Under the pieces are notes generated by a model that was not told the origin of the DNA, did not search any database, and worked only from the letters and a program-made list of their open reading frames with translations. The translations under genes and the position numbers were made by a program. From Natronococcus sp. AD-5 (lineage in GTDB: Archaea > Halobacteriota > Halobacteria > Halobacteriales > Natrialbaceae), in contig NZ_CP132294.1 of the NCBI RefSeq assembly GCF_030734285.1, positions 1,984,001 to 2,048,000 on the forward strand: DNA of 64,000 nt, written 5' to 3'. Below, piece after piece: positions 43,337-58,694 of the stretch (position 1 is the stretch's first letter; each line of letters begins with the position of its first letter).

Positions 43337-44818
43337 ATGGTCGAACTTGAGTCGATCAGTCAGAGCGGCATAATACGCAATTACGTCGACGGCACGTGGC
43401 GAGATGTCACGGGCGACGACGAGTTGACGACCGTGAACCCGGCGACGAACGAAGAACTGGCAACGGTGCCGTTCAGTTCCGAGGCCGACGTCGACGAAGC
43501 GGTTCGCGCCGGAAACAGAGCGTTCGAAGAGTGGTCGAACCGTCCCGTTGAGGAACGAATTCAGCCGCTGTTCCGGCTGAAGACGCTGCTCGAGGAGCAT
43601 CAGGAGGAACTCGCCGAAATCCTCGTCCAGGACCACGGAAAAACGCTCGCCGAAGCTCGCGGTGAACTCCGCCGCGGGATCGAGAACGTCGAAGTCGCGT
43701 GTGGCATCCCGTCGATGATGCAAGGCGGCACGCTGCTGAACGCCGCGCCAGAGATAGACGAGAGCGCCGTTCGCAAACCACTCGGGACGTTCGCGGCGAT
43801 CACCCCGTTCAACTTCCCCGGTATGATCCCGCTCTGGTTCCTCCCGTACGCGGTTGCGACGGGGAACAGTTTCATCCTCAAACCCAGCGAACAGGATCCG
43901 TTGGTCCCCCAGCGGCTGTTCGAACTCATCGACGAGGCCGGCTTCCCCGATGGTGTCGTCCAACTGGTCAACGGCGGCAAAGATACCGTCAACGCCTTGA
44001 TCGACCACGATGGCATCGAGGGAATCTCGTTCGTCGGATCGACGCCGATCGCAAAACTCGTCTACGAACACGCCGCCGAGAACGGGAAACGCGTTCAGGC
44101 ACAAGGGGGGGCAAAGAATCACATCGTCGTTACGGAAACTGCCGACCTCGAATTCGCCGCCGAGAAGACGGTATCTTCGGCGTGTGCCTGTGCCGGCGAG
44201 CGGTGTCTCGCCAACGACGTCGTGCTGATCGAAGAATCCGTCTACGAGGAATTCGTCGATCTCGTCGTCGCCGAGGCTGAAGCGCAGGTCGTCGGAGATG
44301 GGCTGGACGAGAAGACGGATATTGGAGCACTCATCAGTGAGGATCACGAGACGAACGTCCGGAACCACATCCAGACTGGCATCGAAGAAGGAGCGACGGT
44401 CCTGCGGGACGGTCGCGACGTGACCGTCGAGGACTACGAGGACGGGAACTTCTTGGGGCCGACCGTGTTCGGCGACGTCACCGAAGACATGGTGATCTCG
44501 CAGGAGGAGATCTTCGGCCCGGTGCTCGCACTTGATTCGGTCGCGTCGGTCGACGACGCGATCGACCGGATGAACGCCAGCCGCTTCGGGAACGCAGCGA
44601 GCCTGTTTACCGGCCGCGGTGCCGACGCCCGCAAATTCCGTCACGAAGCCGAGATCGGCAACATCGGCGTCAACGTCGGGACCTCCGCGCCGATGGCGTT
44701 CTTCCACTTCGGCGGCTGGAAGGACTCGTTCTTCGGCGATCTGCACGCCCAGGGGGAGGACATGATCCAGTTCTATACGGACAAGGCAATCTATATCGAA
44801 CGCTGGCCGGAGGCCTGA
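43337..44818 (+). CDS. mmsA: CoA-acylating (methyl)malonate-semialdehyde dehydrogenase
   Basis: The 493-residue aldehyde dehydrogenase belongs to the MmsA branch: GIPSMMQGGTLLNAAPEIDE (residues 123-142), TPFNFPGMIPLWFLPYAVATG (156-176), VGSTPIAKLVY and the catalytic-Cys region CACAGERCLAND (Cys290). The general-base Glu of ordinary ALDHs is replaced in LVYEHAAENGKRVQAQGGAKN, as in CoA-dependent members. It converts malonate or methylmalonate semialdehyde to acetyl- or propionyl-CoA with NAD and CoA. ATG 43337 is preferred over GTG 43331. The aminotransferase gene begins 4 bases after the stop, so both form an operon for beta-amino-acid or valine/pyrimidine-type catabolism. Confidence 0.9.
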   Translation: MVELESISQSGIIRNYVDGTWRDVTGDDELTTVNPATNEELATVPFSSEADVDEAVRAGNRAFEEWSNRPVEERIQPLFRLKTLLEEHQEELAEILVQDHGKTLAEARGELRRGIENVEVACGIPSMMQGGTLLNAAPEIDESAVRKPLGTFAAITPFNFPGMIPLWFLPYAVATGNSFILKPSEQDPLVPQRLFELIDEAGFPDGVVQLVNGGKDTVNALIDHDGIEGISFVGSTPIAKLVYEHAAENGKRVQAQGGAKNHIVVTETADLEFAAEKTVSSACACAGERCLANDVVLIEESVYEEFVDLVVAEAEAQVVGDGLDEKTDIGALISEDHETNVRNHIQTGIEEGATVLRDGRDVTVEDYEDGNFLGPTVFGDVTEDMVISQEEIFGPVLALDSVASVDDAIDRMNASRFGNAASLFTGRGADARKFRHEAEIGNIGVNVGTSAPMAFFHFGGWKDSFFGDLHAQGEDMIQFYTDKAIYIERWPEA

Positions 44819-44822
44819 ACCG

Positions 44823-46130
44823 ATGACTGATCCGACGGACGAGACGAGCATTCCACCACAGTTCGAACGGGCGTACGAGTGCGAAACACCCCAATCTCGT
44901 GCCCTAGCGGATCGCGCTCGGTCGGTGATGCCCGGCGGTGACACCAGGTCTGTCACCTACCATCGACCGTACCCCTCGTACGTCGAATCCGCAAGCGGAG
45001 CGTGGCTGCAAACGGTCGACGGCGAAACGTTACTCGACGCGCTCAATAACTATACGCAGGGCGTTCTCGGACACGCGCCGGAACCGGTCACCGAGGCGGT
45101 GTGTGCCCGATTTCGCGCCGGGAACGGCATCGCTGCGCCGACCGAACCGGCCGTAGAACTCGCCGAACACCTCGTCGATCGAGTGCCGTCGATCCAGCAG
45201 ATCCGATTTTGTAACTCCGGCACCGAAGCGACGATGAACGCGGTCCGCGCGGCGATGGCCTGGACCGGTGAGGAGAGGATCTGCAAAATCGACGGCGGCT
45301 ACCACGGAACTCACGATGTCGTCGAGGTCGGTGTCGCGGGGGGCGGGCGAGAGCACAAGGGGATCCCGCGCACTGCCGAGCGGCGGGTCCAAACGGTGAC
45401 GTATAACGACCCGGAACAGCTGAAGGCGACGTTCGAAGCAGTCGGCGACGAGTTGGCGTGTTTGATCCTCGAGCCGATTTTGGGGGTCGGCGGCATGATT
45501 CCGCCGACCGACGGATTCCTTCAAACGGCACGGGACGTGACTGCTGACGCCGATGTACCATTGATCTTCGACGAGGTAATGTCCTTCCGACTCGCGCCCG
45601 GCGGCGCACAGGAGCGTTATGGGATCGAACCGGACCTGACGGCGCTCGGAAAACTCATCGGCGGCGGCCTGCCGATCGGTGCCGTCGGCGGCAGTGAGCC
45701 GTTGATGGAGCAGTTCCATCCGGAAACTGGAGCTATCGATCACTCCGGAACGTTCAACGCGAACCCGGCGACGATGACCGGTGGGCTCACCACTCTTGAA
45801 GAACTGGATGCCAGTTCCATCAAAGAGCTAAACCGTCGCGGTGATTGGCTCCGTGAACGTCTCCAGCAGATCGGCGACGAGTTCCAGCAACCCGTCACGA
45901 TCACCGGCGAGGGATCGCTCTTTCAGGTCCACTTCACGGATGGACCGATTCGAAATCGTCGCTCGTCCACTGCCGGGGATCCCCCCTCGAAGACCCTCTT
46001 TCACGCGATGCGCCGTGAGGGAGTCGTCATCGCCCCTAGAGCGATGGGCAATCTCTCCACAGCGATGGATGACGACGATGTTGAGGCGATCGCTACGGCG
46101 TTCAGACGGGCTCTCGAAACTCTGGACTGA
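44823..46130 (+). CDS. Class III aminotransferase, glutamate-1-semialdehyde-aminomutase-like (probable beta-amino-acid aminotransferase)
   Basis: The 435-residue PLP enzyme has RARSVMPGGDTRSVTYHRPYP, CNSGTEATMNAVRAA, the ring-stacking GGYHGTHD, DEVMSFRLAPGG and Lys277 (TALGKLIGGGLPIGAVGG), the Schiff-base lysine, then SGTFNANPATMTGGL. This matches the HemL fold, yet the gene lies 4 bases after mmsA and not near haem genes. HemL-like aminotransferases with this context include beta-amino-acid transaminases. It probably removes the amino group of beta-alanine or 3-aminoisobutyrate to give the semialdehyde used by MmsA. A true GSA aminomutase is less likely, but sequence alone does not exclude it. 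Confidence 0.85.
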   Translation: MTDPTDETSIPPQFERAYECETPQSRALADRARSVMPGGDTRSVTYHRPYPSYVESASGAWLQTVDGETLLDALNNYTQGVLGHAPEPVTEAVCARFRAGNGIAAPTEPAVELAEHLVDRVPSIQQIRFCNSGTEATMNAVRAAMAWTGEERICKIDGGYHGTHDVVEVGVAGGGREHKGIPRTAERRVQTVTYNDPEQLKATFEAVGDELACLILEPILGVGGMIPPTDGFLQTARDVTADADVPLIFDEVMSFRLAPGGAQERYGIEPDLTALGKLIGGGLPIGAVGGSEPLMEQFHPETGAIDHSGTFNANPATMTGGLTTLEELDASSIKELNRRGDWLRERLQQIGDEFQQPVTITGEGSLFQVHFTDGPIRNRRSSTAGDPPSKTLFHAMRREGVVIAPRAMGNLSTAMDDDDVEAIATAFRRALETLD

Positions 46131-46220
46131 TCCGTGTGGGTGAGAATGTTTATCTCACATAGTATCAGAAATGTATAACAAAGTATAATAGTTTGCCTTT
46201 TTTACTATTATTGGGAAACT

Positions 46221-47300
46221 ATGCAAGGGAAAAAGGAGAAAGTCGGACAAAGATTCAAGCGGAGATCGTACCTCGCGGCAGCCGGGACCACGGTGACGGC
46301 GGGGCTCGCCGGTTGTCTGGGAATGTTGAGCGGTAGCGACGACTATATTCGATACTTAGGCTGGGGAGGAAACACGCAGGATTCGGCGGCCGAAATCTTC
46401 GATCGGTGGAGCGAAGAGTCAGGCGTGGAAGTTCGGCACGAATCCGCTGGCGGTGACGTCGAGTTCATCTCGTACCTGCAGCAGAACCGAGGCGAAGTCG
46501 ATCTGTTCTTGCCGTCGTCCTACGGCATTCACCTGGCTCGTCAGGAGGACTTACTTGCTGAAGTCGATCACGAGGAGGTCCCCAACTACCAGGAAAACAT
46601 GAAAGACGACTGGCAGGACATGCCGTACATGGAAGGAGACGCCTTTTTCCGTGACGCCCTCACGCAGGGGTACTCGGTGAACGGCGACGAGGTCGACCGA
46701 GAGATGGGGTCCTGGGAGGATACCAAGGCCGACGAGTTCGACGGGGTCCTGTCGCTTCGAGACGACGCCGCGAGCCGGTTCACCAACGCCGCATTGGCGC
46801 TCGGCGAAGACGTGAACGAGATCCCGGACGACGATGGCCTCTTCGATGCCGTCGTAGAGGAACTCGAAGCACAGCACGAAAACGTGTTCGGCCTGTGGGG
46901 GTCTGGCGCGGAAGCGATGCAGTACCTTCGGGAAGAGAATGCGCTGGTCGCCGAGGCGTGGGGCGGTCGAACGCGGGCGCTCCAGCAAGACGGGAACGAA
47001 CACATCGAGTACGTGATCCCAGACGAGGGCGCGGCAACGATCACGGAGGATTACGCGATTCCAGTGCACAGTGAGAAGAAAGAGACCGTCTACGAGTTGC
47101 TCGACTTCGCCTACGAGCATGAGAACCTCGTCGACATTTCAGACATGCTTGGATATCCGGTTCCCGTCGTCGATACGCCGGACGTGATCACCGATCTTCC
47201 CGATTACGTCGACGACCCCGACAATCTAGCGTGGGTCGACTGGTCGATCGTCGATCCGGTCATTGACGACTGGCAAGAGACGTTCGACGAGATAAAGTGA
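46221..47300 (+). CDS. ABC transporter substrate-binding lipoprotein, spermidine/putrescine (PotD) type
   Basis: The 359-residue protein has a Tat-type signal with Arg14-Arg15 (RFKRRSYLAAAG) and a lipobox LAGC with Cys32, so it should be exported folded and lipid-anchored. The mature part shows PotD-like features: YIRYLGWGGNTQDSAAEIFDRW, LPSSYGIHLARQEDLL, AFFRDALTQGYSVNGDEVD, FGLWGSGAEAMQYLREENAL, and IPDEGAATITEDYAIPVHSEKKE. These proteins bind polyamines or related amino compounds. It is the first gene of a four-gene ABC operon. An AT-rich region (46150-46215) with TATA-like elements lies just upstream, fitting a leaderless transcript. Confidence 0.88.
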   Translation: MQGKKEKVGQRFKRRSYLAAAGTTVTAGLAGCLGMLSGSDDYIRYLGWGGNTQDSAAEIFDRWSEESGVEVRHESAGGDVEFISYLQQNRGEVDLFLPSSYGIHLARQEDLLAEVDHEEVPNYQENMKDDWQDMPYMEGDAFFRDALTQGYSVNGDEVDREMGSWEDTKADEFDGVLSLRDDAASRFTNAALALGEDVNEIPDDDGLFDAVVEELEAQHENVFGLWGSGAEAMQYLREENALVAEAWGGRTRALQQDGNEHIEYVIPDEGAATITEDYAIPVHSEKKETVYELLDFAYEHENLVDISDMLGYPVPVVDTPDVITDLPDYVDDPDNLAWVDWSIVDPVIDDWQETFDEIK

Positions 47301-47328
47301 CAACTCTCGATTAAAAATCTCATAAGAT

Positions 47329-48360
47329 ATGTTAGAGATAGACGGCCTCACGAAGTATTACGGAGACCTTCTGGCAGTCGACGACCTTTCGTTTTCGGTC
47401 GACGAGGGCGAGTTCGTGACGCTTCTCGGCCCGAGCGGCTGCGGAAAGAGTACGACGCTGCATACCATCGCCGGACTGATCGACCCCTCGGAAGGGACGA
47501 TCTCCCTTCGCGGCGAGGACGTCACCGCACTCCCGCCCGACCAGCGGAATATCGGGATGGTGTTTCAGAACAGTGCACTGTTCCCGCATATGACCGTCGC
47601 AGAGAATATCGCGTACGGGCTGAAGATGCATGGGCTAGACGACATCGACCGACGCGTCAGCGAGTATCTCGGCCTAGTGCAGATGTCCGGCTACGAGGAT
47701 CACCTCACGACCGAACTGAGTGGCGGGCAACAGCGTCGTATTTCGATCGCTCGTGCTCTCGCCTACGAGCCCGACATTCTCTTGCTCGACGAGCCGCTGA
47801 CTGGATTGGATCGGGTCCTTCGCGAGGAAATTCGTAACGAAATTAAAAAGATCCAGCGGGAGATCAACGTCACTACCCTGTTCGTGACGCACGATCAGGA
47901 GGAGGCGTTGTCGCTGTCGAACCAGATCATCGTCCTCAACAACGGCCAAAAAGAGCAGGAAGGGTCCCCGGAAGCACTGTACGAGCAGCCCGCGAACTCC
48001 TTCGTAGCCGAATTCATCGGAAAATCCTCGAAGTTCACGGGCCGTATCGACGAGCATGACCCGTCGATCGTTCAAAACGGATCGCTGACGTTCGTTGTCG
48101 ACTCGGATCCGAAGCTCGAAACCGATGACGCCGCTCTCTACGTGCGTCCCGAAGATATCGATATCGAACCGAACGGCAGCTACGAGAACACGTTCGACGG
48201 GACCGTCAGTCACATCGCTGACGTGGGAAGCCACAGCGAGGTCCAACTCGAACTTACGGATGGCTCCACCGTCTTGGTCGAGGCGGAACGGTTCCCCAAT
48301 TTCGAGGTTGGCGACACTACAACCATCGGATTCCGTCCGAAAGACGTGATCGCTCTATGA
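47329..48360 (+). CDS. ABC transporter ATP-binding subunit, PotA type
   Basis: The 343-residue ATPase has Walker A GPSGCGKST (residues 34-42), Q-loop MVFQNSALFPHMTVAENI, signature LSGGQQRRISIARAL (about 130), Walker B DILLLDEPLTGLD and the switch His in LFVTHDQEEA. A C-terminal TOBE domain from about residue 245 (VRPEDIDIEPNG, VQLELTDGSTVLVEAERF) is as in CUT1/PotA importers. It energises the import of the substrate bound by the 46221 lipoprotein. The gene starts 28 bases after it, and its last 4 bases overlap the permease start (ATGA). Confidence 0.93.
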   Translation: MLEIDGLTKYYGDLLAVDDLSFSVDEGEFVTLLGPSGCGKSTTLHTIAGLIDPSEGTISLRGEDVTALPPDQRNIGMVFQNSALFPHMTVAENIAYGLKMHGLDDIDRRVSEYLGLVQMSGYEDHLTTELSGGQQRRISIARALAYEPDILLLDEPLTGLDRVLREEIRNEIKKIQREINVTTLFVTHDQEEALSLSNQIIVLNNGQKEQEGSPEALYEQPANSFVAEFIGKSSKFTGRIDEHDPSIVQNGSLTFVVDSDPKLETDDAALYVRPEDIDIEPNGSYENTFDGTVSHIADVGSHSEVQLELTDGSTVLVEAERFPNFEVGDTTTIGFRPKDVIAL

Positions 48361-49199
48361 TCGTGAGAAACCTCACCGCGCCTGCATGGATACGCGACCG
48401 CGCAACACCCGCCTATTTCGTCGCGTTCGGTCTCGGATGGCTCACACTCTTTTTCGTCATCCCCCTCCTGATCCTCGTCTGGCAGAGTCTCGGAGTGGGG
48501 TCGAACGAACCGCTTGCGGCGTACGAACAGGCGCTCTCCGGATTGTACATCTGGGCCATCCTGAGATCGTTCTATTACGGGATCGTCACGACGGTCGTGA
48601 CCCTGACGCTCGCGTACGCGTTCTCGTACTTCCTGGTCTTCTGGGCCGACCTGAAGCGGTTTTTCCTCGTGCTCGTCGTGCTTCCGCTCTGGATCGCGTA
48701 CATTATTCGCTACCTCGGCATCCAGCTGCTTTTCTCGCCGACGGGGCCGTTCGTGGGCGTATTCGGGACCGATTTCGGGTTCCTGTTCTCGACGAGAGGC
48801 GTGATCATGGGGTTGACCGTCGCGTACCTTCCGTTTGCGATCCTTCCGATCTACAACTCGATGAGTGCGATCGACCGGTCACACATCCACGCGTCTCGAG
48901 TACTCGGCGCCGGCCAGCTACGCACGATCTATTCGGTTATCTTCCCGTTGAGCATCTCCGGCGTCGTTGCGGCCGGGCTGATCGTCTTTATTCTGGCATC
49001 CGGATCGTTCCTCGCACCGGCCGTTCTCGGCAGTTCTGACAACTTCATGATTGCAAACATGATCGAGCGATCGTACACCGAACTGTACAATCTCGAGCTC
49101 GCGGCAGCCCTGTCGGTGATCTATACGGCCGTTCTCCTCGTGTTGATCGCCGGCTTCAACTCGTACGTTAATCTCGGCGAGGTGTTTGAAAGCCTATGA
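48357..49199 (+). CDS. ABC transporter permease, PotB type
   Basis: The 280-residue membrane protein has about six helices. The EAA-type cytoplasmic loop appears as SHIHASRVLGAGQLRTIYSVIFPLS (about 178-200), which docks the ATPase. The first helix (FGLGWLTLFFVIPLLILVWQSL) and a long first external loop are typical of PotB/PotH proteins. Start overlaps the ATPase gene by 4 bases and the end overlaps the next permease by 4, so the three genes are translationally coupled. Confidence 0.9.
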   Translation: MIVRNLTAPAWIRDRATPAYFVAFGLGWLTLFFVIPLLILVWQSLGVGSNEPLAAYEQALSGLYIWAILRSFYYGIVTTVVTLTLAYAFSYFLVFWADLKRFFLVLVVLPLWIAYIIRYLGIQLLFSPTGPFVGVFGTDFGFLFSTRGVIMGLTVAYLPFAILPIYNSMSAIDRSHIHASRVLGAGQLRTIYSVIFPLSISGVVAAGLIVFILASGSFLAPAVLGSSDNFMIANMIERSYTELYNLELAAALSVIYTAVLLVLIAGFNSYVNLGEVFESL

Positions 49200-49975
49200 A
49201 ACTCTACGAGGCGGCAGAGCGGTTCACAGCCTGGTTGGTTGCGACCGTCGTGCTTGGTCTGCTGTTATTCCCGATCGCAATGATCGTTCTCACCTCGGTA
49301 ACACCGGCGAACTTCCCGACGATTCCGAGCGATGAGATCAGCTTTCGGTGGTATGTTGAGATGGCCGCGAACGCCGAGCTGCGACAGGCACTTCTCACCA
49401 GCTTTGTAGTCGCGTTTTTCGCGGCAGTTCTCGCTGGGATCGTCGGTACGGTGACTGCTTTCGGCTTCGTCCGAAGCGACATCCCCTACCGCGAGGAGCT
49501 CGCGACCGTCATGCTGTTGCCACTGATGATTTCGCCAGTGATCACGGGGCTAGCACTGATTCAGTTCGCATCCCGTATTGACCTCTCGAGCGGTTACCCG
49601 ACACTCATCCTTGGACACTCTATTCTCACGCTTCCGTACGTGTTCCTGATCGTTCGGTCGCGTCTGGTCACCTTCGACGAGGAGCTAGAGGCCGCGTCGC
49701 GTATACTTGGTGCAAACGGCCTCGAGACGGCACTCAACGTGACCCTCCCGGTCATCTCGCCGAGTATGATCTCGGCAATGATTATCGCGTTCGTCGTTTC
49801 CTTCGGCGAGTTTACCGCCACACAGTTTTTGATCTCACCTGATGCGACTACCGTTCCGGTGATCATCTATACAATGCTCCGAGCAGGGCTCAGTCCCGAA
49901 ATCAGCGCTCTCTCGACGGCGCTGATCGCCATCATGCTGCTTGGAGCCCTCGTCAGCGGCGCGCTCTCGAGATAG
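49196..49975 (+). CDS. ABC transporter permease, PotC type
   Basis: The 259-residue membrane protein has six predicted helices and the EAA loop ELEAASRILGANGLETALNVTLPVI at about residues 163-187. N-terminal helix VATVVLGLLLFPIAMIVL and the VTAFGFVRSDIPYREEL block are usual in PotC/PotI permeases. It completes the heterodimeric channel with the product of 48357. It is the last gene of the operon; a 176-base AT-rich gap separates it from the next aminotransferase gene, which may have its own promoter. Confidence 0.9.
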   Translation: MKLYEAAERFTAWLVATVVLGLLLFPIAMIVLTSVTPANFPTIPSDEISFRWYVEMAANAELRQALLTSFVVAFFAAVLAGIVGTVTAFGFVRSDIPYREELATVMLLPLMISPVITGLALIQFASRIDLSSGYPTLILGHSILTLPYVFLIVRSRLVTFDEELEAASRILGANGLETALNVTLPVISPSMISAMIIAFVVSFGEFTATQFLISPDATTVPVIIYTMLRAGLSPEISALSTALIAIMLLGALVSGALSR

Positions 49976-50151
49976 CTTCGGGTGGCTTTCGCCCAACCAA
50001 CTTATGCGGTGAACTGATACATAAAATATATCCTAATCGAGGAGAAAGTACGTACACTATGCCGTGACTCTGCTTATCTTAGAAATACTATCCGGATAAA
50101 ACCGGAATGATCCAAAGATTAATCAACACTCGGAGACAGGTATTGGGATAG

Positions 50152-51492
50152 ATGTCAGAGCAAGAGCCGCCAGTCGAATCCAGCTTGAACGAGATCGAGC
50201 GATCCGACAAAGAGTACGTGTTCGGAACGTGGTCGTACCAGAACGAAGTCAGTCCGACCCAGGTCGTCGATGCAGATGGCGTCCGATTCACCACCGCGGA
50301 CGGAAACGAGTATATCGATTTCTCGAGCCAACTTATGTGCTCGAACCTCGGCCACTCAGCCGACGCCGTCGTCGACGCGATCGCCGAGCAGGTCCGGGAG
50401 ACGGCCTACGTCGCGCCGAGCTATACGACGGAAGCGCGTTCCGAACTGGGAAAGAAACTCGCGGAGGTGACACCCGGCGACCTCTCGAAGACGTTCTTCT
50501 CGACCAGTGGAACCGAAGCTGTCGAAGCCGCGATCAAGATCGCGCGGTTCTACACCGGGAAACAAAAAATCATCTCGCGGTACCGATCCTACCACGGTGC
50601 GACCTACGGGTCGATCAGCGTCACCGGTGATCCTCGCCGACTGATGGCCGAACCCGGCATTCCCGGAACGATCAAGGCGCCCGATCCGTACGCGTACGGG
50701 TCGACCCTCGATCCGATGGAGAGCGTCGAATACATCGACGAAATGCTCGAACTCGAGGGTGATACGGTAGCCGCGATTCTCGTCGAGCCGATTGTCGGGT
50801 CGAACGGGATTTTGGTTCCTCCGGAAGAATACCTGCCCCGTCTCAAAGAGGTCGCTCACAAGCACGACGCTCTGCTCATCTGTGACGAGGTGATGGCCGG
50901 GTTCGGACGAACCGGTGAATGGTTTGGTTGTGACGTCTTCGACGTCGAGCCCGATATTATGACGATGGCCAAGGGGCTGACCGGTGCCTACCAGCCCCTC
51001 GGTGCGACGATCGTCAACTCCGACATCGCAGCCCACTTCGAGGAGAACATGTTCTGTCACGGGCATACCTATGCAGGCCACCCTGCTGCGGTTGCTGCTG
51101 GGCTGGCAACGATCGAAACCTATCAGCAAGAGAACCTCATCGAGCGGGCGAGCGAGATCGGTGAGTATCTCGGTGACCGGATCGACGACCTCGCGGAGAA
51201 GCATCCCAGCGTCGGTGATACGCGCGGGGTCGGACTGTTCCGCGGTATCGAACTGTCGAAACACCCCGAAAAGCGCGTTCCATTCGGTGCCCGTGAGGAC
51301 AAGATCGATACCGGCACCACCGTCGTTGACGAAGTTTCCGCGACTGCCGGAGAGCACGGGACCTACGTCGCAAACATGATTAATACGTTGATCATCGCAC
51401 CACCGCTCACCATCACCGAAGACGAAATCGACGAAGCGATCGAGGCGATCGATGCCGGTCTCGACGTCTCTGACCGGGCGATGGACGCTTAA
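50152..51492 (+). CDS. Class III aminotransferase (omega/beta-alanine:pyruvate type)
   Basis: The 446-residue PLP enzyme shows DFSSQLMCSNLGHSADAVV, FFSTSGTEAVEAAIKIAR, YRSYHGATYGSISVTGDPR (ring-stacking aromatic), ICDEVMAGFGRTGEWFG and Lys274 (TMAKGLTGAYQPLG), then HGHTYAGHPAAVAAGLA. This order and spacing is that of beta-alanine:pyruvate, GABA and taurine aminotransferases. It would deaminate an omega- or beta-amino acid to a semialdehyde, which MmsA can finish. It follows the ABC importer and precedes an Lrp-type regulator. Two class III aminotransferases in one locus suggest two different amine substrates. Confidence 0.88.
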   Translation: MSEQEPPVESSLNEIERSDKEYVFGTWSYQNEVSPTQVVDADGVRFTTADGNEYIDFSSQLMCSNLGHSADAVVDAIAEQVRETAYVAPSYTTEARSELGKKLAEVTPGDLSKTFFSTSGTEAVEAAIKIARFYTGKQKIISRYRSYHGATYGSISVTGDPRRLMAEPGIPGTIKAPDPYAYGSTLDPMESVEYIDEMLELEGDTVAAILVEPIVGSNGILVPPEEYLPRLKEVAHKHDALLICDEVMAGFGRTGEWFGCDVFDVEPDIMTMAKGLTGAYQPLGATIVNSDIAAHFEENMFCHGHTYAGHPAAVAAGLATIETYQQENLIERASEIGEYLGDRIDDLAEKHPSVGDTRGVGLFRGIELSKHPEKRVPFGAREDKIDTGTTVVDEVSATAGEHGTYVANMINTLIIAPPLTITEDEIDEAIEAIDAGLDVSDRAMDA

Positions 51493-51576
51493 CAATTCAT
51501 CTGACAGCTCTCAAACATCATGACGGAAATCAACCGATAAAAAAGGATTCTTAGCATAGAGTGTTTATTATTGGAT

Positions 51577-52095
51577 ATGAGTGACCCACGTCAATCGGAT
51601 CTGGACTTCGACGAGATCGATCTTGCGATCCTCGAGCGAGTTGAAACCGACTTCGACGTCAGCCTTGAGACACTTGCCAGCGAACTCGACGTCTCGAAAT
51701 CTGCGGTTCATTACCGGCTGAACAAGTTCAAAGAAAACGGCGTGATCGAAGGGATCACTGCAGATGTCGATCCACTCGCGCTCGGCTTAGAAATGGTCGC
51801 GATCACCGACGTCTCGGTTACCCACGAAACGGGATACTCCGAGGACGTCGGCGAGGAATTGATCGCACTGAAAGGCGTTGATCAGGTCTACTACACGATG
51901 GGTGACGTGGACTTCGTCGTTATCAGCCGCGTTCAATCCCGTGATCAACTGAACGATCTGATCGATCGCATCATCGCGATCGAGTCCGTCAACGAGACGT
52001 CGTCGAAGTTCGTGATGCAGGAGTTCAAGAACGACCGCGGCATCTCAGCGAACCTCACCGACGAAGCGCGTGAGATCGTCCTTGGAAACGAGTAG
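51577..52095 (+). CDS. Lrp/AsnC-family transcriptional regulator
   Basis: The 172-residue protein has an N-terminal helix-turn-helix (DEIDLAILERVETDFDVSLE, then LASELDVSKSAVHYRLNKFKENGVI) and an AsnC-type ligand-binding domain (MVAITDVSVTHETG, GVDQVYYTMGDVDFVVISRVQ). ATG 51577 is preferred over the TTG at 51571. Haloarchaeal Lrp proteins often control adjacent amino-acid genes. It lies between an aminotransferase and a carbamoylase-type gene, both on the same strand, so it is the best candidate regulator of this catabolic region. Likely octameric, by family. Confidence 0.9.
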   Translation: MSDPRQSDLDFDEIDLAILERVETDFDVSLETLASELDVSKSAVHYRLNKFKENGVIEGITADVDPLALGLEMVAITDVSVTHETGYSEDVGEELIALKGVDQVYYTMGDVDFVVISRVQSRDQLNDLIDRIIAIESVNETSSKFVMQEFKNDRGISANLTDEAREIVLGNE

Positions 52096-52166
52096 CCGTC
52101 AGCGCTCGCCCGACGACAGACGCTCTCCAACCAGTAGCATGGATACAGTTTTCACCGTCCTAGAAA

Positions 52167-52178
52167 GGTTTAGAAACC
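52167..52178. promoter_or_regulatory. 12-bp palindrome over the core promoter of the carbamoylase-type gene
   Basis: GGTTTAGAAACC is a near-perfect inverted repeat 21-32 bases upstream of the ATG at 52200. In leaderless haloarchaeal genes the TATA box lies about there, so a dimeric regulator bound here would block transcription. The adjacent Lrp-type gene is an obvious candidate; that link is an inference. Confidence 0.4.
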
Positions 52179-52199
52179 GTACAAGAATTACAGAGTGTA

Positions 52200-53429
52200 A
52201 TGATTAAACTCGATCGTGATCGATTCATCGAACTGATGGTTGAACAGTCGGAGATTGGGGCGACGGACGACGGCGGGCTTCACCGTCTCGCGCTGACCGA
52301 CGCAGATCGACAGATCCGCGACTGGTTTCGTGAGAAAATGGAGGATGCAGGACTCGACGTCCGAATCGACGAATTCGGAAATATGTTCGGTCGATACGAG
52401 GGGGCCGAGCCGGACGCCGCACCCGTACTCGTCGGGTCGCACCTCGATTCACAGCCCAAGGGCGGGAGTTACGACGGCGCGTTGGGCATCATCGCGGCCC
52501 TCGAACTCGTGCTGACGCTGCACGACAACGAGATTCGGCCGACGCGCCCCATCGAGATTGTCAACTGGACGAACGAAGAGGGATCACGGTTTCAACCCGC
52601 GATGCAGGGCAGCGGCGTTTGGGCTGGCGAGCACGATCTCGAAACCGAGTATACAAAAACCGATAGCGAGGGAACCACCTTCGAAGACGAACTCGACCGG
52701 ATCGGGTACAAAGGTGACGTCCCCGCAGAGCCCACAGAAAACTACGACGTGTATCTCGAGTTACACGTCGAACAGGGCCCGTACCTGGAGGACGCAAACG
52801 CTGATGTCGGTGTCGTAACTGGGATCGTCGGGTTTTCATGGGGTGAACTGACGTTCACTGGCGAGTCGGATCACTCCGGGCCGACCCCGATGCACTACCG
52901 GAGTGACGCACTCGTCGCCGCTGCCGACGTGATCACGCGGATCCGACGCATCCCCGGAACGCTGGGCGAGCGTACCGTCGGTACTGTCGGCTACATCGAT
53001 GCCACACCGAACTCGGTGAACGTTATCCCCGGGGAAGTAACGTTGACGTGGGGATTCCGCGACCCGGACGACGCGGTTGTGCAACGCGCGTACGAGAACG
53101 TCGTCCGCGAGGCGAGAGCGGCAGCCGAGCGCGAAGGGGTCGACGTAGAATACGAAGAAACGATGCGCGCTTCCAGCGTGGAGTTCGCCCCCCGATGTAT
53201 CGAGACGATCCAGTCCACGACGACCGATCTTGGATACGACAGTGAGCGGTTGATTTCCGGTGCGGGTCACGACGCGACACACCTCGCCTCCGTCACCGAT
53301 ACGGGAATGGTGTTCGCCGTCAGCGAGGACGGGAAAAGCCACTCGCCCGAGGAATATACGAGTTGGGACGATTGCTACGCGGCCGCCATGACGCTCTCGA
53401 ACGCCGCGGTCCGGATCGCGACCGAGTGA
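52200..53429 (+). CDS. Zn-dependent amidohydrolase, N-carbamoyl-amino-acid hydrolase / beta-ureidopropionase type (M20 clan)
   Basis: The 409-residue enzyme has the carbamoylase-type metal motifs: VLVGSHLDSQPKGGSYDGAL (His and Asp), VNWTNEEGSRFQPAMQGSG (Glu pair), LELHVEQGPYLED (His), and SGAGHDATHLA late in the protein; the dimerisation lid reads FSWGELTFTGESDHSGPTPMHYR. Family members release CO2 and NH3 from N-carbamoyl amino acids, or hydrolyse allantoate or N-acyl bonds. In this context conversion of N-carbamoyl-beta-alanine to beta-alanine is attractive, feeding the aminotransferases and MmsA. Dihydropyrimidinase is not in the window. The stop is convergent with the M20 gene at 53580. 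Confidence 0.87.
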   Translation: MIKLDRDRFIELMVEQSEIGATDDGGLHRLALTDADRQIRDWFREKMEDAGLDVRIDEFGNMFGRYEGAEPDAAPVLVGSHLDSQPKGGSYDGALGIIAALELVLTLHDNEIRPTRPIEIVNWTNEEGSRFQPAMQGSGVWAGEHDLETEYTKTDSEGTTFEDELDRIGYKGDVPAEPTENYDVYLELHVEQGPYLEDANADVGVVTGIVGFSWGELTFTGESDHSGPTPMHYRSDALVAAADVITRIRRIPGTLGERTVGTVGYIDATPNSVNVIPGEVTLTWGFRDPDDAVVQRAYENVVREARAAAEREGVDVEYEETMRASSVEFAPRCIETIQSTTTDLGYDSERLISGAGHDATHLASVTDTGMVFAVSEDGKSHSPEEYTSWDDCYAAAMTLSNAAVRIATE

Positions 53430-53579: not shown

Positions 53580-54845
53580 TCACCGTTCGGTCGGCTCGTC
53601 CTCCCCCAAGAGGTCGATCGCGGTCGTCGCCATCACCGTTGCAGCCGTGAGGATCTCATCGACGGGCACGTACTCGTCCTCTACGTGAGCCTGCTCGAGG
53701 AGCCCGGGTCCGTAGACGACACAGTTCTCGATACCGGCATCGTTAACGACGAACCGCTGATCGTCGGAGCCCGGTGAGACGACGAACTCGACGTCGTCAT
53801 GGTGTTGTTCGACGCGTCGCGCGACCGTTTGGCTCAGCGTGCAGTCGCGAGGGACCGCAGCAGGCTCTGCGAACATGATTTCCTCGTACTCGAACGTCGC
53901 ATCCGTCGCGTTCTGGGCCGTTGTGAGGAGGTCTTCGATCTCTGCCTGCACGACTGCCACCGATTCGCCGGGCACCAACACTCGATAGAACGTCGCCGAA
54001 CAGCGATCCGGAACCACGTTTTCAGAGTAGCCGGCATCGAGCATCGTGGCCGAAATGTCCGCCCGGCGTGATTCGGGTGGGATGACGGGCAGGTCGGTCG
54101 TTCGCGTATGGAGTCGCTCGCGGTAGTCGTCGATGCGGGCGAGGAAGTCCGTCATCGCCGTAATCGCGTTCTCTCCGTCGTGTGCCATACAACCGTGGGC
54201 TTTCCGGCCCTGGGATGTGACGGTGAATTTGAGGACGCCGCGATGGCCGAGACAGACGCGCGACGAGTCGAAACACTCCGTATAGAGACAGTAGTCGGTG
54301 TCAGCGAAGTACCCCTCCTCGACGAGGTAGCCTAGCCCGGTAAAGCCGCCCGTCTCTTCGTCGACGGTCATACTCTGGGTGATCGTCCCCGAGAGTTCCG
54401 CGTCGACGGCCTCGAGTGCATCGACTGCGAGGAGGCTCGCCGCGATCCCGGCCTTCATATCGCTCGTACCGCGGCCGTAGAGGTTCCCGTCCTCGAGAAC
54501 AGGCTCGTATGGGTCGTACGTCCAATCCTCCCCGGCGGGGACGACATCGAAGTGACCGGTGAAATGTAACGTCGGTCCGTCGCCGTAGTGGCGGTGTCCG
54601 AGCACGTTTACGCGCGGGTGCTCTGCTCGGTCGGGATAATGCTGCGCGACGACGTCGCGCGGCACGGTGACTTCTTCGACGTCGTATCCACGGTCGGTTA
54701 GCGCTTGCTGGAGGAACGTCGCCCCCTCGGGATACGCGCGGCCCGGCGGGTTTTCCGTCGGGATCGAGACGAACTCGGAGAGGAATTCGACGATCTCGTC
54801 ACGTCGGGCTTCAACCGCCGCGGCCACCGCTTGTGACGACGCCAT
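53580..54845 (-). CDS. M20 family metallohydrolase (ArgE/DapE/CPG2-like)
   Basis: The 421-residue protein carries FTGHFDVVPAGEDWTYDPYEP (metal His and Asp), YGRGTSDMKAGIAAS, VDEETGGFTGLGYLV (catalytic and bridging Glu), a dimerisation domain with LKFTVTSQGRKAHGCMAHDG, and a final metal His in YGPGLLEQAHVEDEYV. M20 enzymes cleave N-acyl or peptide bonds. It is the second gene of a two-gene minus-strand operon: its ATG shares one base with the stop of the SDR gene. The tight pairing with an oxidoreductase suggests sequential use of one amide substrate. Substrate unknown. Confidence 0.88.
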   Translation of the reverse strand: MASSQAVAAAVEARRDEIVEFLSEFVSIPTENPPGRAYPEGATFLQQALTDRGYDVEEVTVPRDVVAQHYPDRAEHPRVNVLGHRHYGDGPTLHFTGHFDVVPAGEDWTYDPYEPVLEDGNLYGRGTSDMKAGIAASLLAVDALEAVDAELSGTITQSMTVDEETGGFTGLGYLVEEGYFADTDYCLYTECFDSSRVCLGHRGVLKFTVTSQGRKAHGCMAHDGENAITAMTDFLARIDDYRERLHTRTTDLPVIPPESRRADISATMLDAGYSENVVPDRCSATFYRVLVPGESVAVVQAEIEDLLTTAQNATDATFEYEEIMFAEPAAVPRDCTLSQTVARRVEQHHDDVEFVVSPGSDDQRFVVNDAGIENCVVYGPGLLEQAHVEDEYVPVDEILTAATVMATTAIDLLGEDEPTER

Positions 54846-55588
54846 CAGATATCTCGCCCCCCGTCAACCTCGAGCGCCGTGCCAGTGATCATCGCCGCGT
54901 CGTCACTCGCCAAAAATACCGCTGCTTCGGCCACATCTCGGGGTGTTGCCAGCCGTCCCATCGGAATGGTTGCCGCCATGCTTTCGACACTCAGTTCGTC
55001 TCCCGCGAACTCGTCGAGCATTGGGGTATCCGTTGCGACAGGACAGATGGCGTTCACACGGATCGTTGGCGCGAGTTCGTACGCCAATTGCTTGGTCAGG
55101 GCGACCATCCCTCCCTTCGAAGCAACGTATGCAGACAGGCCCGTTCGGGGGCGAATCGCAGCCGTCGAGGCCGTGTTGAGAATAACCCCTTCGCTCTCTC
55201 TGAGGTGCGGAACCGCATATTTCGCTCCGAGAAACGCGCTCTTGAGATTGACGTCGAGAATCCGATCCCACGTCGCTTCTGTAACGTCTTCGACCGGCGT
55301 CCCCTCCTGAGGGATGCCCGCATTATTGTGCAAGACATCGAGCCGACCGAACGCCTCGACGGTACGGTCGATCATCGTTTCGACGTCCGTGGCGTCCGAG
55401 ACGTCCGCTTCGATCGCGATCGCATCGCTGGATTCGTCTCGGATCTCCGCGGCAGTCGTCGTTGCGGCGTCGTGATCGAGATCGACACATGCGACTGCAG
55501 CACCGTGTGTCCCAAATCGGCGGGAAACTGCGCGTCCCATGCCGGACCCAGCGCCGGTGACGATCACAACGTTCTCGGAGTGATTCAT
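54845..55588 (-). CDS. Classical short-chain dehydrogenase/reductase
   Basis: The 247-residue SDR has the cofactor motif VTGAGSGMGRAVSRRFG (TGxxxGxG at 11-18), CVDLDHDAATTTA suggesting NAD(H) use (acidic residue after beta-2), HNNAGIPQEG (NNAG), Ser about 140, and catalytic Tyr-Lys in SAYVASKGGMVALTKQLAYE. The C-terminal AVFLASDDAAMITGTALEVDGG is the usual ending. The frame is open upstream to 55723 but ATG 55588 gives the standard N-terminus. It is the first gene of the operon with the M20 hydrolase, divergent from the aldehyde dehydrogenase at 55751. Probably oxidises an alcohol or hydroxy acid. Confidence 0.9.
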   Translation of the reverse strand: MNHSENVVIVTGAGSGMGRAVSRRFGTHGAAVACVDLDHDAATTTAAEIRDESSDAIAIEADVSDATDVETMIDRTVEAFGRLDVLHNNAGIPQEGTPVEDVTEATWDRILDVNLKSAFLGAKYAVPHLRESEGVILNTASTAAIRPRTGLSAYVASKGGMVALTKQLAYELAPTIRVNAICPVATDTPMLDEFAGDELSVESMAATIPMGRLATPRDVAEAAVFLASDDAAMITGTALEVDGGRDI

Positions 55589-55750
55589 GCAGCTTGATAC
55601 TGTCCCACATGCAATGAAACTTAGGTCAAATCGGAAATAGCAGACTGCTGTTTCTGGAAACTCGGTTTCGATAAAATATAGTTCGGAATCGAAGACGGTT
55701 TTGTAGATAATGACCAGTATCATTTCATAGGATCAGTCCGTTGTCGATGT

Positions 55751-57226
55751 ATGAACCATCCTGATATCGATTTCGAAGACGAGTACGACCTTCACATCGA
55801 GGGGGAGTTCATCTCTCCGGAAGGTGGTGAGTATCAACCCGCGGTCGATCCTGCGACCGGCGGCCCGTTCACGTCCGTCGCAGTTGGGACGCCCGCCGAT
55901 ATCGATCGCGCGGTGTCCGTTGCACGTACGGCTGCGGCTCAGTGGCGGGACGTTCCGGCAGCCGAACGCGGACGCCTCGTCCACCGCGTTGGCGAACTCA
56001 TCGACTCGCATGCCGAGGAACTCGCCGCGATCGAAAGCAAAGACCAGGGAAAACCGCTCTCACAGGCACGCAGCGACGTAGCGGGTGCTCAACGGTATTT
56101 CGAGTACTACGCGGGCGCCGCCGACAAGCTCGAAGGGCGGAGCGTGCCCGCCGGCCCCGACCAGGTCGATTTCACGGTTCGTGAACCGTACGGCGTAAGC
56201 GCTCAGGTGACGCCGTGGAACTTTCCAGGGAATCTCTTTGCACGTGGCGTTGCACCGGCACTGGTCGCCGGAAACGCGGTTGTCGTCAAGCCTGCGCCAC
56301 AGACGGCACTTTCGACGCTGTCTCTCGCGGAGCTGTGTACTGAGGCCGGACTCCCGGATGGCGTCGTAAACGTCGTTACTGGACCCGGTGATTCAACCGG
56401 TGAAGCACTCGTTTCACATCCCGATGTGGATACGATCACGTTCACCGGGAGTGTGGACACCGGCCAGCGTATTATGAAAGAAGCGGCAGAGACCGTGACA
56501 CCGGTGACGCTTGAACTCGGGGGGAAGAATCCGGCAATCGTGTTTCCGGATGCCGATCTCGACGCGGTCGCGGATCACATCACGACCGCCATCTTTACGA
56601 ACGCCGGACAGGTGTGCTCGGCAGCCGATCGACTGCTCGTCCATGAAACGGTCCACGACGAACTGCTCGACCGGATAGTCGCTATCGCCGAAAGGTACGA
56701 TATCGGTCCTGGTTGGAGCGATCCAGATCTCGGACCGTTGGTTTCAGAAGCCCACTTCCACCGCGTCCGAGAATATATTGAATCGGGGCGGAACGAGGGT
56801 GCAACGCTTCTCACAGGGGGTGAAGCGCCAGAACGACCGGGATACTTCGTCGAACCAACGGTGTTCACCGACGTCACACCTGCAATGCGGATCGCCCAGG
56901 AGGAAATTTTCGGGCCGGTCCTCAGTGTGTTTCGCTTCACCGAGGAACAGGAGGCGATCGAACTCGCTAACGGAGTCGATTACGGGCTCACAGCAGGTGT
57001 ATTCACGAACAATCTCGCCCGAGCACACCGTCTGACCCGGACTCTCGAGGCTGGAACCGTGTACGTGAACACCTGGTTCGGCGACACGACGCAGACGCCG
57101 TTCGGTGGATACAAACAGAGCGGCATCGGCCGCGAGAAGGGACTCGAAGCGCTCGATTCCTATCTCCAAACCAAGAACATCGCTATCGGGCTCGAAGACG
57201 AGACGGATAGTCTTCCCGGAGCATAA
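55751..57226 (+). CDS. NAD(P)-dependent aldehyde dehydrogenase
   Basis: The 491-residue ALDH has TPWNFPGNLFARGVAPALVAG at 155-175, VKPAPQTALSTL, FTGSVDTGQRIM, Glu255 in LELGGKNPAIVF and catalytic Cys289 in NAGQVCSAADRLLV, then EEIFGPVLSVFRF and PFGGYKQSGIGREKG. The complete catalytic set indicates a normal hydrolytic ALDH such as betaine-, aminobutyr- or succinate-semialdehyde dehydrogenase. It is divergent from the SDR/M20 operon with 162 bases between, and precedes another M20 gene. Oxidation of an aminoaldehyde or semialdehyde from the same catabolic route is the likely role. Confidence 0.9.
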   Translation: MNHPDIDFEDEYDLHIEGEFISPEGGEYQPAVDPATGGPFTSVAVGTPADIDRAVSVARTAAAQWRDVPAAERGRLVHRVGELIDSHAEELAAIESKDQGKPLSQARSDVAGAQRYFEYYAGAADKLEGRSVPAGPDQVDFTVREPYGVSAQVTPWNFPGNLFARGVAPALVAGNAVVVKPAPQTALSTLSLAELCTEAGLPDGVVNVVTGPGDSTGEALVSHPDVDTITFTGSVDTGQRIMKEAAETVTPVTLELGGKNPAIVFPDADLDAVADHITTAIFTNAGQVCSAADRLLVHETVHDELLDRIVAIAERYDIGPGWSDPDLGPLVSEAHFHRVREYIESGRNEGATLLTGGEAPERPGYFVEPTVFTDVTPAMRIAQEEIFGPVLSVFRFTEEQEAIELANGVDYGLTAGVFTNNLARAHRLTRTLEAGTVYVNTWFGDTTQTPFGGYKQSGIGREKGLEALDSYLQTKNIAIGLEDETDSLPGA

Positions 57227-57353
57227 CGATAGAGTTGGATAAAATATCTATATAGCCTCTTTGTAAGCATTCTTTCCTGTTAGAGGCGTCTTCTATTGGA
57301 AATTATTCTCCTATACCGGAACAGTTTTCACTTATGACACTGTGCGTGAGTAT

Positions 57354-58523
57354 ATGACTAACACGGGGAAAGACGAGTTGGAGACGCTCATTGGGGAATT
57401 GGTCGCGATCGAGACGGAGAATCCACCGGGTAACGAGGGTACGTGTGCGGAGTATATCCAGGAGTGGTTCGCTGACCGCGGTATCGACGCTGACCTGCTT
57501 GCCGAACCCTATTCCGACCGTCCCCAACTCGGGGTACGAGTAGGCGACGGTGATCCAACGCTCGTTCTGAACGGACATATTGACGTCGTCCCTGCCGGAG
57601 ACCGGAATCAGTGGGAGTACGACCCATACGGCGCAGAGGTCGCCGACGGAGCGTTATATGGTCGGGGGAGCGTGGACATGAAAACGGGCGTCGCGATCGG
57701 AATGCTTGCCACGGCGCAGTTCGCCGACGAAATCGAGTCCGGCGAGCTCTCGGGATCAATCGTCTTTCACGCTGCGATCGGCGAAGAAACCGCCGAGCCA
57801 GGGACGAAAACGCTGTTGGAGCAGGGGTACGACGGTGATTATGCTGTCGTGCTTGAGCCGACCGATCTCCGAACGGCGACCAGCGAGAAGGGGCTCGCCT
57901 GGTACGAGATTCAGATCGACGGTGATCCGTCGCATGCGAGTCGACCGGATCAGGGCGCGAACGCGATTGTCCGCGCACAGTCCGTCCTCAACGCGCTCGC
58001 GGAGTACGACGAAACCGTTCGAGAGCGGACCGACGAGCTCGTGGGCCAGGCATACTCGACGGTAACCATGTTCGAGGCTGGTACCAAAGAGAACGTTGTC
58101 CCGGAACGTGCCACGGTCACGATCGACCGGCGGTTCTTGCCCAGGGAAAACATCGAGGAGATCGACGCAGAAATCGATGCGTTGCTGGCCGACGTCGAAT
58201 CGGAGTACGATATCCGGACCTCGTGGGAACGGACCCGAACGTACGAATCCGCTGCGATCGATCCGGACAGTCCGTTGGCGACGGTCTTTCAGCGTCACTC
58301 CGCAGCAATCGCCGACGTCTCGACGGAAGCGTGGGGCATCAACGCTTCCACCGATGTTCGGAATTTCGTAAACGACGCCGATATAGAGGCGATTACGTGG
58401 GGGCCGGGCGATATCTCACAGGCACACACCTATGACGAGCACGTCTCCCTCGAGGCCGCCGCAACCGGTCTCGACGTGTTGCTTGAGGCTGGTTGGGTGG
58501 TCCTCGCAGACGGTCTCGAGTAA
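57354..58523 (+). CDS. M20 family metallohydrolase (ArgE/DapE-like)
   Basis: The 389-residue protein shows LVLNGHIDVVPAGDRNQWEYDP (metal His/Asp), YGRGSVDMKTGVAIGM, IGEETAEPGTKTLLEQG (Glu pair), SHASRPDQGANAIV and TWGPGDISQAHTYDEHV (last metal His). It is a close paralogue of the 62314 gene: both share GEETAEPGTKTLL, FEAGTKENV or LEAGTKENV and DRRFLPxENIxEID. An upstream in-frame GTG at 57342 exists, but ATG 57354 is preferred. It lies between the aldehyde dehydrogenase and the symporter genes on the plus strand. Probably an N-acyl-amino-acid or dipeptide hydrolase. Confidence 0.88.
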   Translation: MTNTGKDELETLIGELVAIETENPPGNEGTCAEYIQEWFADRGIDADLLAEPYSDRPQLGVRVGDGDPTLVLNGHIDVVPAGDRNQWEYDPYGAEVADGALYGRGSVDMKTGVAIGMLATAQFADEIESGELSGSIVFHAAIGEETAEPGTKTLLEQGYDGDYAVVLEPTDLRTATSEKGLAWYEIQIDGDPSHASRPDQGANAIVRAQSVLNALAEYDETVRERTDELVGQAYSTVTMFEAGTKENVVPERATVTIDRRFLPRENIEEIDAEIDALLADVESEYDIRTSWERTRTYESAAIDPDSPLATVFQRHSAAIADVSTEAWGINASTDVRNFVNDADIEAITWGPGDISQAHTYDEHVSLEAAATGLDVLLEAGWVVLADGLE

Positions 58524-58694
58524 CGCACACCCCGGTATCACTCCTCGTCAGTGATCGTTTCCGGAGACGTTCATGCTGAATGGATGATCATTGATGGCAT
58601 ATATGCGGCTTTTGCTTGAACGCGTTCGCCACTGTTCCCTCTTTATTGGACAATAGACGAAATTTTTATTGTGTATGGTTTTGACATACGTGTT

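Follow-up and report, generated by a model that had tools for sequence, protein, structure and literature searches.

A probable beta-amino-acid assimilation locus in the haloarchaeon Natronococcus sp. AD-5

Gene content of the locus

Which compounds are taken up and broken down by the products of nine consecutive + strand genes of Natronococcus sp. AD-5? These genes occupy positions 43337-53429 of a 64,000-nt stretch of the genome ('the window' below is this whole stretch; the genome is labeled G000, and C1 and C2 are its contigs). Their products, in order, are MmsA, a HemL-like aminotransferase, the four components of an ABC importer, a second aminotransferase (AT2), a regulator of the Lrp family and a carbamoylase of the M20 family. 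Our preferred answer, with a probability of roughly 0.6, is that the locus is an assimilation module that would convert beta-alanine and other beta-amino acids (or their N-carbamoyl derivatives) to acetyl- or propionyl-CoA. The original prediction, made from the letters of the window, had described one locus with such a beta-amino acid to acyl-CoA logic; sequence comparisons and a conserved neighborhood in other haloarchaea agree with it.

The open-frame check found + strand frames for all genes named in that prediction, their coordinates were right and the families were confirmed by model scans:

43337..44818, +: mmsA, CoA-acylating (methyl)malonate-semialdehyde dehydrogenase (TIGR01722; closest solved chain 1t90)
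44823..46130, +: HemL-like class III aminotransferase of the glutamate-1-semialdehyde aminomutase (GSAM) fold, probable beta-amino-acid transaminase (fails TIGR00713; relatives 6k8h and 2yku; R42/R406)
46221..47300, +: solute-binding protein, PotD-like (PotD model, solved polyamine-binding relatives)
47329..48360, +: ABC transporter ATPase, PhnT2/PotA-like (models below cut-off)
48357..49199, +: ABC transporter permease, PotB-like (124.4 versus a cut-off of 348)
49196..49975, +: ABC transporter permease, PotC-like (136.8 versus a cut-off of 326)
50152..51492, +: AT2, class III aminotransferase, probable beta-alanine transaminase (nearest model PRK06062; neighbors)
51571..52095, +: Lrp/AsnC-family regulator, Grp/BarR-like (Pfam AsnC_trans_reg; solved relatives 2efq/2e7w)
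52200..53429, +: M20-family N-carbamoyl amidohydrolase of the hydantoinase/carbamoylase family (TIGR01879; solved relatives; tree)

The start at 43337 is an in-frame ATG situated two codons inside a GTG frame at 43331, and the carbamoylase frame ends at 53429. The HemL-like gene follows mmsA by 4 bases, exactly as predicted; the subsequent gaps are 90, 28, -4, -4, 176, 78 and 104 bases.

Scores above the cut-offs place MmsA (TIGR01722, 522.3 versus 448.5) in the family of CoA-acylating methylmalonate-semialdehyde dehydrogenases and the carbamoylase (TIGR01879, 425.5 versus 204) in the hydantoinase/carbamoylase family of M20 amidases, in agreement with the names first given to them. Both aminotransferases match PF00202, the class III family (scores of the HemL-like protein and AT2 323 and 191.7 bits, cut-off 30.5); the nearest model of AT2 is PRK06062 (465 bits, cut-off 472) and its closest solved chain is taurine:2-oxoglutarate aminotransferase 6jix. 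The carbamoylase carries motifs GSHLDSQ, YDG, NEEGS, LHVEQG and SHS at residues 79, 91, 125, 188 and 380, which we take to be the metal sites. Its solved relatives include 4wjb, 8c46 and 1r3n, the last two with names of beta-ureidopropionase (PydC) type. In a tree of 24 sequences, printed without support values, the window carbamoylase groups with copies linked to dihydropyrimidinase and to a luciferase-family (LLM) reductase; a separate group, ∼50% identical, contains the other carbamoylase of G000, encoded on C2. The most likely substrate of the window enzyme is N-carbamoyl-beta-alanine.

The regulator has the AsnC/Lrp ligand domain expected from its initial naming (Pfam AsnC_trans_reg). Its best solved relatives are 2efq/2e7w, and the closest is StGrp; 2E7W is StGrp of Sulfolobus tokodaii (PMC6801745; here and below, papers are cited from the parts available to us). 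Grp shares 69% identity with BarR, an Lrp protein that responds to beta-alanine (PMC10201364) and activates a gene for beta-alanine aminotransferase (PMC4977709), and a synteny of Lrp, gabT6 and mmsA genes is common to Haloferax and Sulfolobus (PMC6801745). By analogy, the regulator would be BarR-like, sensing beta-alanine and controlling genes of the locus.

The importer had been called polyamine-type. A family resemblance was indeed found, with PotD as the best model for the solute-binding protein and putrescine/spermidine-binding proteins as its best solved relatives, but no polyamine model reaches its cut-off: the PotABCD scores are 66.4 versus 582 (solute-binding protein), 324 versus 482 (ATPase with PotA) and the two permease values listed above. 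The ATPase scores best with the model of PhnT2 from an aminoethylphosphonate transporter (346.2 versus 457.7), which is also below the cut-off.

Conservation of the gene grouping

Among 146 genomes of the order, searches with single proteins (all totals include the own genome) detected the carbamoylase in 37 genomes (E<=1e-100), MmsA in 36 (E<=1e-120), AT2 in 22 (E<=1e-130) and the HemL-like protein in 6 (E<=1e-80). We mapped loci in all 22 AT2 genomes and in each of the 16 genomes whose carbamoylase is >=63% identical; the window belongs to both sets. Neighbors were identified by tblastn at >=45% identity (>=40% for Lrp) and half coverage; contig ends shorten some loci.

Of the 21 other AT2 genomes, 17 have the Lrp gene no more than 3 kb from AT2. 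With the window counted, this layout of BarR type, an Lrp gene beside an aminotransferase gene, is present in 18 of 22. The mmsA gene was within 3 kb of AT2 in 16 of the 21 (in the window itself the two are 5.3 kb apart). Within 10 kb of the carbamoylase gene, the other 15 genomes have AT2 (8 genomes), Lrp (7), dihydropyrimidinase (6), LLM reductase (5), mmsA (4) and a nucleobase-type permease (4; NCS2 three times and NCS1 once). Since the same genes recur side by side in other haloarchaea, their grouping is beyond chance.

The semialdehyde step may have a second solution. Genes of aldehyde ferredoxin oxidoreductase were found <=3 kb from AT2 in three genomes (G117, G057 and G040) and <=10 kb in G041:

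L094:3489-5330, L090:3794-5644, L089:5236-7098, L096:13554-15404: aldehyde ferredoxin oxidoreductase near AT2 (family match)

As MmsA was not found in G057 and G041 at E<=1e-120, the oxidoreductase may replace it there; G040 has both enzymes.

The HemL-like aminotransferase

The best curated models for the HemL-like protein are GSAM models, which could mean that the gene encodes the glutamate-1-semialdehyde aminomutase of the organism. Its scores, however, fall below the cut-offs of these models (TIGR00713, 329.8 versus 527.3), and a better hemL candidate exists at C1:3539992 (449.5 bits, likewise below the strict cut-off, with the match in two pieces). The best solved relatives are 6k8h (StoTA) and beta-transaminase 2yku (MesAT), with beta-phenylalanine aminotransferase 4ao9 also among them. 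Arg42 is aligned with R36 of StoTA and with the first of two arginines of 2yku; Arg406 is aligned with the second arginine of 2yku, which StoTA lacks. Neither arginine is present in the two solved GSAM chains of the alignment. In 11 HemL-like proteins compared, Arg42 is invariant and Arg406 is not. R36 of StoTA possibly holds the substrate carboxylate (PMC10589169).

The gene is also rare: when the search was extended to 392 genomes of the order, 14 had it at E<=1e-110, the own genome included. We mapped neighbors at the other 13 copies, of which one is on a 9-kb contig (G383) and two are close to a contig end (G189 and G244). In all five genomes with copies at 75-80% identity (G189, G291, G071, G362 and G226) mmsA is located immediately upstream of the HemL-like gene, and in two of the five (G291 and G362) the four-gene importer follows downstream. 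Nearly the whole set of the window, AT2, mmsA, HemL-like gene, importer and carbamoylase, is found within ∼12.5 kb in G291 (the AT2 match is in two pieces and no Lrp gene was seen). G226 has carbamoylase, Lrp, AT2, mmsA and HemL-like genes together, without the importer, and G199 (60% identity) has importer, HemL-like gene and AT2 clustered without mmsA. Model scores, the better candidate elsewhere, rarity and active-site residues led us to reject a haem role. The enzyme is probably a beta-amino-acid transaminase; the earlier preference for this function over haem synthesis thus agrees with both sequence and conserved neighborhood.

Bacterial relatives gave no such picture: in the 12 of 14 loci that were mapped (blastp, E<=1e-10; several short contigs), neither mmsA nor carbamoylase was found. 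These loci showed weak similarity to aldehyde dehydrogenase (34-36%) and AT2 (30-32%), and transporter ATPases in one. Ten open reading frames checked with Pfam, six of them from the bacterial HemL-like loci, gave no link to beta-amino acids.

Proposed route

In the route that we propose, the ABC importer would take up a small amino acid, either free or N-carbamoylated, and the M20 carbamoylase would decarbamoylate an N-carbamoyl-beta-amino acid, with N-carbamoyl-beta-alanine as the best candidate (the family is established by the model match; the substrate is predicted). AT2 would convert beta-alanine to malonate semialdehyde, as suggested by its neighbors and by the precedents of Sulfolobus BarR and Haloferax gabT6. 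The HemL-like enzyme could transaminate a second beta-amino acid; given that its gene directly follows mmsA, the most natural guess is conversion of 3-aminoisobutyrate to methylmalonate semialdehyde. MmsA, in accord with its family, would yield acetyl-CoA from malonate semialdehyde and propionyl-CoA from methylmalonate semialdehyde, and the BarR-like protein would regulate the genes upon sensing beta-alanine. Judging from the genes missing in this genome, the route would begin at the (carbamoyl-)beta-amino acid and not at uracil.

Several observations weigh against this proposal. Matches of the importer to its models are weak. For the carbamoylase, the two top-scoring models, each over cut-off, bear the name allantoate amidohydrolase. 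The closest solved relatives of AT2 include taurine, polyamine and omega-amine transaminases, so its specificity is not fixed by sequence. Four of the 15 other carbamoylase loci (G140, G073, G121 and G115) have no mapped gene within 10 kb, and in two more (G116 and G045) the LLM gene is the sole mapped neighbor within this distance. In five of 21 genomes mmsA is not within 3 kb of AT2; AT2 of G065 has no mapped neighbor. Among the eight HemL-like copies at 54-63% identity, mmsA is never adjacent, and six have no mapped gene at all (G244 has AT2); with mmsA present in all five copies at 75-80% identity, the mmsA/HemL-like pair is conserved in close relatives, not family-wide. Finally, the Haloferax motif AAAGACTAART, proposed in PMC6801745, is absent from the locus; a single hit, differing at one base, falls elsewhere in the window, at 60302 (chance alone predicts 0.6 hits).

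Alternative explanations

The locus could supply the later steps of a full reductive pyrimidine pathway in this organism, with dihydropyrimidinase and reductase encoded elsewhere in the genome. The same carbamoylase clade occurs within 10 kb of dihydropyrimidinase in the six genomes counted above, and C2 of the own genome encodes an allantoinase-like hydrolase together with a luciferase-family reductase 50% identical to those of relatives. Yet no dihydropyrimidinase orthologue was found in G000 at E<=1e-80, as opposed to 25 of 146 genomes that have one, and both best matches to the hydantoinase model TIGR02033 are below its cut-off. The best, C1:1508180, passes the allantoinase model (372.4 versus 357.85) as well as the dihydroorotase family model (335.8 versus 279.05) and is <100 bases from the genome's only full-length DHO_dh gene; because of the latter two facts it is probably pyrC. 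The second best is the allantoinase-like hydrolase on C2, which sits with the reductase in a purine-related-looking cluster. Search for a dihydropyrimidine dehydrogenase (DHO_dh-type PreA/PydA, Fer4_20) gave that one full-length DHO_dh gene and no PF14691 match. Thus, both enzymes of the upper pathway were sought and neither was found at the thresholds used. With no orthologue of the one and no recognizable form of the other, full uracil breakdown is unsupported here: Natronococcus sp. AD-5 probably does not degrade uracil via this locus, the earlier suggestion of reductive pyrimidine breakdown as a whole is not supported for this organism and we consider the complete pathway unlikely.

Use of amines is less likely still. 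Here the Pot-like importer would bring in putrescine-like amines (or an aminophosphonate), AT2 would deaminate them and the aldehyde dehydrogenase at 55751 would oxidize the aldehyde. The resemblance of the importer to PotABCD, and of its ATPase also to PhnT2, fits this scheme, as do a polyamine:pyruvate transaminase among the solved relatives of AT2 and the closeness of the aldehyde dehydrogenase gene. The model scores, though, do not reach any polyamine or aminophosphonate cut-off. Among the 22 AT2 loci the importer is beside AT2 in the window only, and where the wider HemL-like set adds cases (G291, G362 and G199) the HemL-like gene is present each time. MmsA and carbamoylases are not known to have a role in polyamine use. 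Scavenging of purine nitrogen (from allantoate or ureidoglycolate) by the M20 enzyme, which the allantoate amidohydrolase names would favor, ranks just behind as highly improbable. The 50% identical carbamoylase on C2 scores higher on the allantoate amidohydrolase model (498 versus 458) and has xanthine-dehydrogenase-like and allantoinase-like genes around it, while the window enzyme belongs to the other clade and stands beside beta-amino-acid genes. The aminomutase reading of the HemL-like gene, already disfavored by the evidence given above, is the least credible of all. Assimilation of beta-amino acids is therefore the explanation that we retain.

Pyrimidine-type genes and a luciferase-family reductase in relatives

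Some relatives have the genes that the window lacks. G108 carries within ∼15 kb two M20 genes, SDR oxidoreductase, aldehyde dehydrogenase and sodium:solute symporter (SSF) genes (in the order M20, SDR, aldehyde dehydrogenase, M20, SSF), mmsA, AT2, dihydropyrimidinase, LLM, carbamoylase and an NCS1 permease. The name dihydropyrimidinase carries a caveat: for three such proteins of relatives that were scanned, TIGR02033 is the best model but its cut-off is not reached (330-336 versus 393); D-hydantoinases and dihydropyrimidinases are the nearest solved proteins. Uracil is a predicted substrate of the NCS2 protein, whose nearest model is a xanthine permease, below cut-off. In G093 and G077 a protein of ∼159 aa is encoded between the NCS2 permease and the carbamoylase (L085:8244-8720 and L086:11380-11853); no Pfam family matched the L085 copy at E<=1e-5.

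Markers of dihydropyrimidine dehydrogenase were checked in 10 genomes, nine of them with dihydropyrimidinase. Each of the 10 has one full-length DHO_dh gene (252-276 bits), and the other matches do not exceed 37 bits (41.6 when pieces of one frame are summed). PF14691, a dihydropyrimidine dehydrogenase domain, has no match in the 10 genomes and matches in 9 of 14 control genomes. The known flavin/iron-sulfur dehydrogenase looks absent in these relatives.

The LLM protein was found in 17 of 146 genomes. Six copies are 77-100% identical to the G108 query (G108 counted), and in five of the six the gene is <=15 bases from the carbamoylase gene (in G006 the two are on different contigs). The eleven others are 49-51% identical; ten have a carbamoylase within 10 kb (nine by search coordinates and G020 by locus mapping), and none was mapped in G005. 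All seven distinct sequences among the solved relatives at E<=1e-10 are F420 enzymes. The predicted model of the protein (mean pLDDT 74.6, moderate) has F420-dependent Mer as the top structure match; the first 29 matches are F420 enzymes, followed by luciferase-like monooxygenases. We call the protein Mer-like, not Mer, as its score is below the Mer cut-offs (180.8 versus 276). The seven solved relatives and first 29 structure matches disfavor a RutA-type oxygenase. This evidence favors F420 as the cofactor, with FMN possible given the moderate quality of the model.

Because pyrimidine-type genes adjoin carbamoylase and LLM genes while markers of the known dehydrogenase are absent, an F420-dependent first step of uracil breakdown is suggested for the relatives. 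A broader scheme is tentative, and we give it somewhat less than an even chance: the carbamoylase-AT2-MmsA set of relatives would complete a reductive uracil pathway that starts with the Mer-like, F420H2-dependent LLM reductase, the sister reductase on C2 would catalyze the matching step of a reductive urate pathway, and F420-dependent dearomatization of pyrimidines and purines would be a haloarchaeal theme. Genetics of mureidomycin biosynthesis assigns reduction of the C5-C6 double bond in a uracil moiety to a putative F420/FMN oxidoreductase, for which no activity was detected in vitro (PMC10714638). Urate clusters of Chloroflexota have a putative F420-dependent luciferase-family protein in place of known reductases (PMC12507026); the word archaea does not occur in the main text of that paper, as available to us. 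A literature search, mostly of titles and with subscription papers outside its scope, found no report of an F420-dependent uracil reductase in haloarchaea. The luciferase-family gene HVO_A0295A of Haloferax is induced on L-alanine versus ammonium (log2 5.6), with no role assigned in the available text of PMC6801745.

Two side observations concern the reductase. G035 has, ∼1.6 kb from its LLM gene, a gene for a radical SAM protein whose C-terminal domain is CofH-type, presumably for F420 chromophore synthesis (L149:3253-4668 and 6247-7281). The second cluster of the own genome, C2:440000-459500 (L148), encodes two XdhA-like molybdenum subunits, a deaminase, the second carbamoylase, an aminoacylase-like Amidohydro_3 protein, the Mer-like LLM reductase (50% identical to that of relatives), a threonine-synthase-like PLP enzyme (PLP lyase-like) and the allantoinase-like hydrolase. 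The nearest model of the deaminase is 5'-deoxyadenosine deaminase, over cut-off; SsnA and guanine deaminase models matched below cut-off. The cluster resembles the reductive urate pathway described in PMC12507026, with an F420-type reductase.

Comparison with known systems

Reductive pyrimidine breakdown had been described as poorly known in haloarchaea. The statement needs a qualifier: a route from uracil/dihydrouracil and beta-alanine to acetyl-CoA was proposed in 2019, from transcripts and homology, for cluster HVO_A0293-A0307 of Haloferax volcanii pHV4 (PMC6801745). Common to the pHV4 cluster, as far as that source describes it, and the window are mmsA and genes for a Pot-type importer, an Lrp protein, a carbamoylase (amaB2) and a class III aminotransferase (gabT6). 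Neither dpyS nor the luciferase-family gene is present in the window, whose mmsA is directly followed by the HemL-like aminotransferase gene. The locus is thus a variant of the Haloferax cluster, set apart by the HemL-like/mmsA pair and by having no pyrimidine front end.

The reductive pyrimidine (Pyd) pathway of bacteria has the same roles of carbamoylase (PydC-like), beta-alanine transaminase and semialdehyde dehydrogenase, but no PydA-type or PydB-type orthologue was found in the genome of the window. The HemL-like protein shares the carboxylate-site arginine with StoTA, MesAT and 4ao9; unlike these GSAM-like beta-transaminases, it is archaeal, moderately similar and tied by gene order to mmsA and sometimes to the importer. 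As in the Sulfolobales BarR regulon, an Lrp-type gene accompanies genes of an aminotransferase and mmsA (PMC4977709, PMC10201364, PMC6801745), the comparison here being made through the relative StGrp (PDB) and not BarR itself.

If the proposed route is correct, haloarchaea would reuse the carbon and nitrogen of beta-amino acids and ureido acids by means of a modular gene set. At its front end species would differ in having pyrimidine-type genes, the importer or the HemL-like transaminase; the back end may vary as well, between MmsA and aldehyde ferredoxin oxidoreductase. The F420-type reductase of relatives is the most interesting lead; it offers a possible function for the pHV4 luciferase-family gene, and in the genetically tractable Haloferax volcanii the F420 idea is directly testable.

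Neighboring genes

The recurring neighborhood runs beyond 53429 to ∼60.4 kb, with the following genes near AT2 or carbamoylase in some genomes:

53580..54845, -: M20 deacylase/peptidase (TIGR01910, 279.9 versus 217.6; near AT2 in some relatives)
54845..55723, -: SDR oxidoreductase (family match and neighbor mapping)
55751..57226, +: aldehyde dehydrogenase (PF00171, 588.7 bits; neighbor mapping)
57342..58523, +: M20 deacylase, ArgE/DapE-type (TIGR01910, 264.2 versus 217.6)
58849..60360, +: sodium:solute symporter, SSF (PF00474, 129.4 bits; neighbor mapping)

The second M20 deacylase gene (57342..58523) was <=10 kb from AT2 in 10 of 22 genomes, window counted. An Amidohydro_3 gene and one more M20 gene extend the row to 63489, and several genes of the 53580-63489 region recur with AT2 or carbamoylase in other haloarchaea; possibly they form a feeder route for N-acyl or peptide-bound amino acids. 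Just upstream of the locus, the window has a gene for a phage-type terminase large subunit (phrog_2, 94 bits) at 39445-41088 on the - strand, and at 29176-33347 genes for a GtrB-like glycosyltransferase and a nucleotide-sugar epimerase-like protein.

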